Below, in pieces: positions 1,574 through 20,654 of a DNA stretch of 64,000 nt; positions within the stretch are counted from its first letter, which is position 1; each line of letters opens with the position of its first letter. The position numbers were made by a program, and so were the translations under genes. The notes under the pieces were generated by a model. The model saw nothing but the letters and a program-made list of their open reading frames with translations. It had not been told where the DNA came from and made no database searches. Source of the stretch: Bdellovibrio sp. GT3 (GTDB taxonomy: Bacteria; Bdellovibrionota; Bdellovibrionia; Bdellovibrionales; Bdellovibrionaceae); the NCBI RefSeq assembly GCF_037996765.1, contig NZ_JBBNAD010000004.1, positions 310,001 to 374,000 of the forward strand, read 5' to 3'.

Positions 1574-1596
1574 AAAGCGCTTCCGCAAGGGCCCGT

Positions 1597-1748
1597 GGAC
1601 TCAATACCGTGGGATTTTAAGTCCCGTCCTTGGGCCTAGGGCCAGCAATAGCTGGTTAAGGTCGGTGCTTAATAAACTTTAAAATCGGCCGATAAGAACA
1701 CTGGGTGGTATTCATTCGGACCTCCTTCAGAATTCCGGAAGTGAGTCC
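1597..1748 (+). ncRNA. candidate structured non-coding RNA (rod-like fold)
   Basis: The gap after the DUF2239 gene holds nested, mutually compatible complementary segments. These are GGACTC 1597-1602 with GAGTCC 1743-1748; AATACC 1603-1608 with GGTATT 1707-1712; GATTTTAA 1613-1620 with TTAAAATC 1679-1686; and hairpin CCAGC-AATA-GCTGG 1642-1655, closed by CCTT 1628-1631 with AAGG 1658-1661. A side hairpin lies in 1713-1741. A Rho-independent terminator follows at once (1754-1795). Nesting over 150 nt followed by a terminator suggests a stable RNA. The long rod with an internal bubble and a 3'-side hairpin is reminiscent of 6S RNA, but I recognise no family consensus. No promoter was defined; the RNA could also be a 3' UTR of the upstream operon. 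Confidence 0.5.
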
Positions 1749-1753
1749 GTCCT

Positions 1754-1795
1754 AAAGGTGACCTTGCGAAAGCAGAGTCACCTTTTTCATTTTTT
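1754..1795 (+). terminator. Rho-independent terminator
   Basis: Stem AAAGGTGAC 1754-1762 with GTCACCTTT 1777-1785, followed by T-rich sequence. It ends the candidate RNA and/or the upstream operon. Confidence 0.75.
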
Positions 1796-1807
1796 AGGCC
1801 CAATTAT

Positions 1808-2258
1808 TTATTGAAAAGATAAAGGCACACTTACACTTAAAGTCATGAGATTGTGCGCGAAGGTATAGTTCGTGAAGTTTTCGGGGGCGTTTTCGATTTC
1901 ATCGCCCTTAATCCCCATCGTATCAAAATTGACGTAAACGGATTTATGGACCAAATAGCCAAAACCAATTTTTGTGCCGGAGCAGATACGGCCTTCGCCC
2001 ACAATCATGTGCGGGAAATACGTGGCGTAAATGTTCAATTTGCCATAGCGGAGCATTCCAAAAATGCCAAAGCCAGTGAGCTTCGCTTCATAATGAGGAG
2101 CTGCCGTCACTCATGTTGTCGGTGTTTTTGAAAGACAGGCCGCCACCGGAAGCAGAAACAACAGCTTTCAATAAATCCAGAGCCGGTCTGTGTCGCTTTT
2201 GTGGCAAATTGAGATCAGTGCTTTGAATTTCGGGCCACTGTAATGTTCGTGTAAATTT
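1808..2258 (-). pseudogene. outer-membrane protein remnant with frameshift
   Basis: On the minus strand a frame open from 2258 encodes about 50 residues (starting KFTRTLQWPE, ending SFKNTDNMSDGS) and then stops at about 2092. The frame starting at 2110 continues the same kind of sequence for 100 residues (PHYEAKLTGFGIFGM..., ending LSVSVPLSFQ). A single-base shift between about 2092 and 2113 would join them into one protein with alternating aromatic/polar beta-strand pattern, like the C-terminal part of an outer-membrane beta-barrel. No start codon with ribosome site or signal peptide is visible upstream, and a stop lies at 2259-2261. It therefore looks like a decayed gene, although a sequencing error for the frameshift cannot be excluded. 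Confidence 0.55.
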
Positions 2259-2382
2259 TCAGTTAAAGACAAATTGGTTTAGTTCGTATTCTGGTGTTTG
2301 GACGAGTATTTTTAGTTTGCGAGGTCAAGTTTGAAAGTGAAGCTCCGAAGAAGAGATTCAATCTTTGTCGGGGGTTATATCT

Positions 2383-3897
2383 ATGTCCACCATTAAAAAA
2401 TGGTTAAAAGGACTGCGTGGAAAGTTATTGTTGTTAGGAGTTATTCCGCCTGTAGCACTCTTTGTAATCATCTATAGTGCACATCAGATCACAACGGACT
2501 TGGAAGGCAAGATTAGATACGCCTACCAAGTGCGCGTGAAATTAATTGAACAAGTTGGCGTGATGTCCGGCTCCGTGCATGCGATGGGTCGTTGGATGTG
2601 GATTGCAAACGGCTTTGCGGATCAGACGGATCAAAGGGATAATTTCCTGTCGCGTGCTAAAAATGAAATCGCGGTTTTTGACGATGTTCGCGATCAGTAT
2701 AGCAAGATGCCCCGCAATCCTGAGATCATCGAACTTTTTTCCTCGGTCGAGAAAAACTGGGCCGTCGCCAAAGATGCCGCTCAGCGGGCGATTGCGGAAT
2801 ACGAAAAAGGAACGCCTGAGGGAGCGGCTGCCGGCAAGGCGATTCTGGCATCGGACTTCGTAAAAAATCTGGTTCCGATGACGGAAGCATTTAAAACTAT
2901 TGGTCAAAAGATGGACATAATCCTGACCGAGGAAATCACCGCGACTCAAAAGCAAGTCAAACAGGTTAAGATCTTTCTTTGGTCTTTGGGGTTGGTGGTC
3001 GCGTTGTTTATTTTCGTGATGGCGATTTCAATAGCCGTGCGGCTGGTCTCGAGCTTTTCCAAGGTGGGTCAGGATATTGGCGGTGCCTCCAAAGATACGG
3101 CTTCTGCCAGCACGCAGCTTTCCATTGCGAGCCAGTCCTTGTCTGGTGGTGCCACTACAGCAGCTGCTTCGCTCGAAGAGACGGTGAGTTCTTTGGAGGA
3201 GTTGACCAGCATGGTGAAACGAAATGCCGAAAATGCACACGCTGCAGAGGAGCTTTCAAAAAGTTCCCGCAATGCCGCCGAGGCCGGGCAAACAGAAATT
3301 TTGATGATGGTAAATTCGATGACGGAACTTTCCCAGAGTTCCAAGAAAATTGAAGAGATCATCAATGTGATTGATGATATCGCGTTTCAGACCAATCTTT
3401 TAGCTCTCAATGCCGCCGTTGAAGCGGCGCGGGCGGGCGAGCAAGGTAAGGGCTTTGCGGTTGTCGCCGAAGCGGTGCGAACTCTGGCGCAGCGATCTGC
3501 GATTGCGGCAAAAGATATTTCCGGGTTGATCAAAGACAATGCTGTGAAAACCAATCAAAGCGCCCTCATGGCTGAAAAAAATGGCAAGATGCTCAAAGAA
3601 ATCGTAGACGGTGTCTCAAAAGTCACAAGTCTGAATCAAGACATCGCCACTGCCAGCCAAGAGCAGTCTACAGGACTGTCGCAGATTAGCATTGCCATGA
3701 ATCAGTTGGATAAATCCATTCAAGAAAATGCCGCTTCTTCAGAGGAAGTTGCCGCAAGCTCCGAAGAAATGTCGGCGCAGGCGATGCAGCTTTCCAATAT
3801 GGCCGACATTCTGAACGTGCTCATCGACGGAAAAACAAATATGCGAGGTGAAGATGGTGTTCATCTGCCCCATTTCAGGGTGGAGAGGGCAAGGTAA
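2383..3897 (+). CDS. methyl-accepting chemotaxis protein
   Basis: Inner-membrane chemoreceptor that signals through CheW/CheA. TM1 is at about residues 14-34, then a ~165-residue periplasmic four-helix-type sensor region, TM2 at about 198-222, and a long cytoplasmic coiled-coil. The highly conserved hairpin tip is present ([20 protein letters not shown], followed by an [14 protein letters not shown]-type stretch). A HAMP domain is not obvious after TM2. No C-terminal CheR-docking pentapeptide is seen. ATG 2383 is chosen over a TTG 18 bases upstream because GGGGG at 2369-2373 gives normal spacing. It converges on cinA with only 10 bp between stops. The ligand is unknown. Confidence 0.93.
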
Positions 3898-20578: not shown

Positions 20579-20654
20579 TGGTGCAGTCGGCAGGACTCGA
20601 ACCTGCAACCCCTTGGTTCGAAGCCAAGTGCTCTATCCATTGAACTACGACTGC
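20579..20654 (-). tRNA. tRNA-Arg (anticodon UCG, for CGA codons)
   Basis: Full cloverleaf on the minus strand: acceptor GCAGTCG/CGACTGC with discriminator A and encoded CCA. Anticodon stem CTTGG/CCAAG with loop CTTCGAA, giving anticodon UCG. T-arm GCAGG/CCTGC with TTCGAGT loop. Confidence 0.93.

Follow-up and report, generated by a model that had tools for sequence, protein, structure and literature searches.

A degenerate copy of a probable multicopy type I toxin-antitoxin family in Bdellovibrionales

The Locus and Its Relatives

Near the start of the window, as we call the whole 64,000-nucleotide stretch of Bdellovibrio sp. GT3 that was analyzed, lies an element (1577-1800) that comparison with its relatives identifies as a degenerate member of an element that Bdellovibrio and other Bdellovibrionales carry in multiple copies. 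At about 1577-1800 it reaches slightly beyond the segment 1597-1795, in which the original prediction had placed a candidate RNA gene. Its features, on both strands, are listed in Table 1.

Table 1. Predicted features of the window copy
Feature	Position	Strand	Basis or remark
Sigma54-type promoter remnant, GG (1800-1799) N10 GA (1788-1787)	1787..1800	-	relatives have GG-N10-GC
Predicted toxin mRNA remnant, 5' end 1775, 3' end near 1577	1577..1775	-	end-to-end fold -73.9 kcal/mol, z -4.5
5' arm of end-to-end helix (GCTTTCGCAAGG), also downstream arm of antisense terminator hairpin	1762..1773	-	covariation
3' arm of end-to-end helix (CCTTGCGGAAGC)	1579..1590	-	sequence; covariation across copies
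5' arm of second long-range helix (GGACTCA)	1742..1748	-	covariation at +27..+42
3' arm of second long-range helix (TGAGTCC)	1597..1603	-	sequence, fold, covariation
Shine-Dalgarno AAGGAGG	1721..1727	-	near-invariant across family
Truncated toxin frame (MNTTQCSYRPILKFIKHRP, then stop), 19 aa	1656..1715	-	intact relatives 30-42 aa
Junction of ~85-nt deletion	1666..1667		aligned with syntenic L002, plus L003 and L012
FliA-type antisense promoter, TTAAT (1669-1673) N15 CCGATA (1689-1694)	1669..1694	+	two boxes, consensus of PMC3627812
Predicted antisense (antitoxin) RNA, ~90 nt	1701..1795	+	promoter and terminator positions; fold z -4.3
Intrinsic antisense terminator, hairpin 1754-1785, T-rich tail 1786-1795	1754..1795	+	sequence, covariation

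Searched by blastn, the segment 1570-1800 finds copies in the same genus and in one other family, several per genome; a 24-nt match in genome G055 is probably due to chance. A covariance model built on the 5' half of the element (R1) matches 16 of the 24 genomes of the genus, 36 of 141 in the order and 38 of 369 in the phylum, with up to 8 copies per genome among the 36 positive genomes of the order. Beyond the order R1 has only two matches, both weak and both in the same class. The window's own genome holds no second copy, and G006, presumably B. bacteriovorus HD100, has no R1 match at E up to 1. The lack of a detectable copy in this standard strain may be why the family has been overlooked so far.

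Copies may lie close together. At 127-131 kb of G016:C10 three of them (L004, L013, and L022) stand in series, 1.9-2.0 kb apart and with unrelated genes as neighbors, and at 139.2-139.7 kb of G051:C12 (L103) two are separated by 368 nt. In L012 a partial second 5' hairpin (AAAAAGGTGACGCCTGCTTTCGCAAGGTCACCC) right after the copy (~1850) looks like a fragment of another copy. A further copy (L113) is found on JAGIAF010000069.1 (Bdellovibrio sp.). The divergent, weak R1 matches L069, L070, L071, L049, and L074 (with L072 and L073) encode peptides mostly ending in LFLLISSCS; the promoter TGC is absent from this subfamily, which is possibly a second, related small-peptide family. As to a phage or viral origin of the element, no phage match was obtained, and the one pattern searched in viral contigs was not found there.

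The Encoded Peptide

On the minus strand, the 87 copies of the family carry the gene of a small hydrophobic peptide, mostly of 30-42 aa, behind a strong Shine-Dalgarno sequence of its own; the window copy, with its 19 aa, does not encode such a peptide. Comparison between copies reveals a constant layout: a short polar N-terminus is followed by R-x-I-L-K/R...K...L and then by a run of I, L, and V with K or R. The peptide has a median net charge of +6 and a GRAVY of +0.84 (+2.1 for the C-terminal half), and AlphaFold predicts a single helix over residues 7-31 with a mean pLDDT of 88. Among 20 pairs of intact copies, pS is 0.38 and pN 0.11, indicating purifying selection on the peptide. No match to it was found in Pfam, NCBIfam, PADLOC, or the PDB sequences. 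The frame is also lost in other single copies, where 25, 18, 5, 22, or 17 aa remain, and such frequent loss in single copies would be expected of a costly toxin.

Folding on Both Strands

The four nested complementary segments of the original prediction were borne out, the plus strand of 1597-1795 folding at -70.7 kcal/mol (z -3.9, 0/200 shuffles). Measured against shuffles, the minus strand of the same segment does better (-68.3 kcal/mol, z -5.4). The outermost pair, 1597-1603/1742-1748, belongs to the long-range pairing of the minus-strand transcript, as does 1579-1590/1762-1773, which lies partly outside 1597-1795. Compensatory changes, the evidence by which an RNA gene was to be recognized, were indeed found in relatives, and this covariation indicates that the long-range pairing is under selection. 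The strong terminator is likewise confirmed on the plus strand, as the hairpin 1754-1785 followed by TTCATTTTTT. It does not terminate a plus-strand RNA from ~1597 but belongs to a predicted short antisense RNA that would start near 1701. What stands of the candidate RNA gene is thus that the locus is conserved, encodes structured RNA with compensatory changes, and has a meaningful plus-strand terminator, whereas a single rod-like non-coding RNA of ~200 nt on the plus strand does not: the long-range fold is that of a minus-strand, peptide-coding mRNA, decayed in this copy.

The suggested kinship with 6S RNA (RF00013) also fails. A stand-alone structural non-coding RNA of the plus strand, such as a diverged 6S RNA, would explain a rod-like plus-strand fold with a terminator, but the likeness is one of overall rod impression only: Rfam has no 6S covariance-model match over the region even at E up to 10, the element occurs in several to many copies per genome and codes on the opposite strand, and covariation together with protein-coding selection points to the minus-strand mRNA. 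This explanation is therefore highly improbable. At gathering scores no Rfam family matches the 1597-1795 region; a sub-threshold hit to BjrC68 around the terminator (21 bits against a cut-off of 39) is probably a terminator look-alike, and a tRNA/tmRNA scan returned only a tRNA-Arg at 20579-20654.

Pairing of the mRNA Ends

The full predicted mRNA has a 5'-3' long-range pairing of the kind seen in hok/Sok- or AapA-type systems. The duplex between 5' leader and 3' UTR has a mean of -54.3 kcal/mol within a copy and -43.1 kcal/mol with the UTRs of other copies (0/10000 permutations), a contrast narrowed by relatedness, since the ends of close relatives pair too. Copies retain end helices of 11 bp in spite of differing sequences: GCTTTCGCAAG/CTTGCGAAAGC in L003, GCCTTCGCTAG/CTAGCGAAGGC in L030, GCTCTCGCCGG/CCGGCGAGAGC in L068, CGGTTTCCCGA/TCGGGAAACCG in L077, and GCGCCGCCAGC/GCTGGCGGCGC in L084. 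In an 8-nt sliding scan, the cognate pairing with the 3' UTR begins at the predicted +1 and is absent upstream; the predicted mRNA 5' end rests on this onset of covariation and on the sigma54-type spacing described below.

The 5' arm (the equivalent of 1762-1773) has two partners, preferring its cognate 3' UTR (z -18.8) as strongly as the other arm of its own hairpin (z -18.9). That other, upstream arm was rejected as a part of the mRNA, as it does not covary with the 3' end. Cognate preference is also found for the leader/Shine-Dalgarno hairpin (z -5.8), and the arm at 1742-1748 overlaps a segment able to cover the Shine-Dalgarno as well. The proximal 3' UTR (ACCUC motif) shows no such preference as a partner of the Shine-Dalgarno (z -1.0), so that pairing between the two is at most suggested by the conserved sequence.

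How would such a closed mRNA be opened? In simple folding, the Shine-Dalgarno does not gain accessibility on 3' trimming and is about equally hidden in the trimmed and the full mRNA, which leaves the opening step unexplained at this level.

Outside the 5' half, few parts of the family are as well conserved as a 3' UTR element, GGGACTTAAAATCCC (1611-1625, minus strand), a near-palindrome or small hairpin that copy alignment shows flanked by CCAAGG.

Two Facing Promoter Signatures

The only conserved letters upstream of the element are GG..c.AAAAATGCAAAA, and GG-N10-GC is the -24/-12 spacing of sigma54 promoters. Of 71 non-redundant copies, 59 have this arrangement (binomial p ~1e-65), and each of the other spacings tested occurs in 0-8. 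The GG lies outside the R1 model and the GC inside it, so that the GC count is in part a product of how the copies were selected; among the copies left out of the model the arrangement is present in 52 of 64. The family thus has a putative sigma54 promoter, a signature missing from the window copy, which has GA at -12 and is the only one of the 71 copies without the GC. The rpoN gene was found in G000 and in 127 of the 141 genomes of the order. A sigma70 promoter was rejected, the upstream logo containing no -35 or -10 and a consensus scan finding none for the element.

A second promoter is predicted on the opposite strand. In B. bacteriovorus, attack-phase promoters were mapped to the FliA-type sequence TTAAG-N16-CCGATA (Karunker et al., PMC3627812). 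Inside the peptide frame, on the antisense strand, TT(T/A)A(G/N)-N15/16-CCGA(T)A occupies a fixed place in 57 non-redundant copies. Both boxes exceed synonymous recodings with the family's codon usage (z 8.7 each, 0/400), and the excess at -35 peaks at spacings of 15 and 16 (z 6.0 and 6.3; next highest 2.5). The codons bear the same imprint: the codon CGG encodes the invariant Arg in 42 of the 57 copies, whereas it makes up 15 of the 152 other Arg codons, and T predominates in the third base of both codons preceding this Arg and of the one six residues further on, which match -10 and -35 positions. The CCGA of the -10 also pairs near the start codon; this stem accounts for neither the -35 nor the final A of CCGATAA. 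The -35 is mostly TTTAG and not the consensus TTAAG, so that the match to a Bdellovibrio FliA (sigma28) promoter is approximate (TTTAG/TTAAN, spacing 15-16).

The predicted antisense transcript would end at the 5' hairpin, which in 59 of the 87 copies is followed by a T-rich tail on the antisense strand, with few T on the opposite side. In this hairpin the upstream arm has no pairing with the 3' UTR, its sole partner being the downstream arm; for this reason, and because of the position of the T-rich tail, the full hairpin seems to be formed in the antisense transcript only. Promoter and terminator signatures of an antisense RNA gene overlapping the mRNA are thus strongly conserved in the family.

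Decay of the Window Copy

Relatives carry an additional ~85 nt comprising the second half of the small frame and part of the 3' UTR. With the deletion in the window, the peptide lost its hydrophobic second half and the mRNA the proximal part of its 3' UTR. A syntenic copy in G010 (L002), in the order MFS gene, 194-aa gene, element, and cinA-like gene, encodes 33 aa. There the cinA-like gene directly follows the element; in the window the two are separated by a chemotaxis receptor gene (2365-3897) and by a fragment resembling an outer-membrane protein (1808-2110, minus strand), and 1808-3897 has accordingly been gained or lost.

As judged from the deletion and from the GA at -12, the toxin half of the window copy is dead. 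The antisense half looks intact: its promoter agrees with the consensus at 6/6 positions of the -10 and 4/5 of the -35, the terminator is preserved, and the predicted RNA spans the start codon, the Shine-Dalgarno, and the leader of the mRNA. With the toxin promoter and frame broken and the antisense signals whole, the locus might be kept as an orphan antisense RNA, a toxinless antitoxin that could act in trans on incoming relatives. Retention of this kind is rather doubtful, since the window's genome offers no other copy, the arrangement is known from one strain, and recent decay would look alike.

A Proposed Type I Toxin-Antitoxin Family

We consider the locus, with a probability of about 0.8, to be a degenerate member of a multicopy toxin-antitoxin family of type I that is new and occurs in Bdellovibrionales. 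The family displays the sequence-level features of such systems and likely works as one. In an intact copy, an activator-dependent sigma54 promoter would yield an mRNA of ~280 nt for a basic, membrane-type helix of ~35 aa. By analogy with hok and AapA (PMC6733600), leader hairpins would conceal the ribosome site of the nascent mRNA during transcription, and pairing of the 5' and 3' ends would then hold the finished molecule closed and inert, until it is opened by trimming of the 3' end or in some similar way. From the FliA-type promoter inside the peptide gene an antisense RNA of ~90 nt would be made, its terminator hairpin spanning the mRNA start site. By covering leader, Shine-Dalgarno, and start codon, this RNA may block translation or provoke double-strand RNA decay, and so stop activated mRNA molecules. 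Only this antisense half would still function in the window copy.

Alternatively, the peptide may be a regulated small membrane protein and not a toxin, again with an antisense RNA, for example a sigma54-controlled stress or developmental peptide silenced in attack phase by the FliA-driven RNA. A non-toxic membrane protein would give similar sequence evidence, and two alternative-sigma promoters suggest programmed regulation; the many copies per genome, patchy presence, frequent decay, and closed-mRNA design nonetheless fit toxin genes better, making a non-toxic role unlikely.

The promoter pair also allows a tentative proposal within the toxin-antitoxin reading: the system may be tied to the predator's life cycle, with toxin mRNA made through sigma54 and its activator, and antitoxin through attack-phase FliA. 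Once the prey had been entered and FliA activity lost, no more antitoxin would be made, so that the locus could be a checkpoint, a guard, or a defence, perhaps acting when the predator passes from attack into growth phase.

Comparison with Known Systems

Type I toxin-antitoxin systems are said to be known only from Proteobacteria, Firmicutes, and Tenericutes, to which one cyanobacterial case has been added (PMC12390103, 2025). The Bdellovibrionota would gain a large predicted type I family that combines a new peptide with a closed-mRNA design of strong covariation and with two facing promoters of alternative-sigma type. The peptide family appears to be new and undescribed, and the pair of sigma factors unusual: searches of the literature, mainly of its openly accessible part, found no account of this family in Bdellovibrio. 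Whether toxin-antitoxin control is linked to the predatory life cycle becomes testable.

Small RNAs, some with FliA promoters, are known from Bdellovibrio attack phase, including merRNA (PMC3627812). They were mapped in HD100, which lacks an R1 match, and merRNA is a c-di-GMP riboswitch RNA, unlike the antisense RNA predicted here. With Ldr/Fst, Ibs, ZorO, TisB, and other type I toxins the peptide shares its size class (~20-60 aa) and a single membrane-type helix; they differ in that the new peptide matches no Pfam, NCBIfam, or PDB sequence.

In hok/Sok of enterobacteria the mRNA 3' end also folds back on the 5' end, an antisense RNA is directed to the leader, and chromosomal copies decay (hok inactivation is discussed in PMC6733600). 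The Bdellovibrionales mRNA is shorter, its peptide is unrelated, the copies inspected have no overlapping mok-like leader frame, and Rfam assigns no known family.

The aapA/IsoA systems of Helicobacter pylori (PMC6733600) also combine a small basic hydrophobic peptide and several chromosomal copies with an mRNA that a long-distance interaction of its 5' and 3' ends keeps closed, with leader hairpins concealing the Shine-Dalgarno, and with an antisense RNA over the leader, the last predicted for the Bdellovibrionales family. Judged by eye, the peptides have no recognizable similarity. The family described here is further set apart by its sigma54- and FliA-type promoters, by an antisense promoter located inside the peptide gene, and by its occurrence in another bacterial group.
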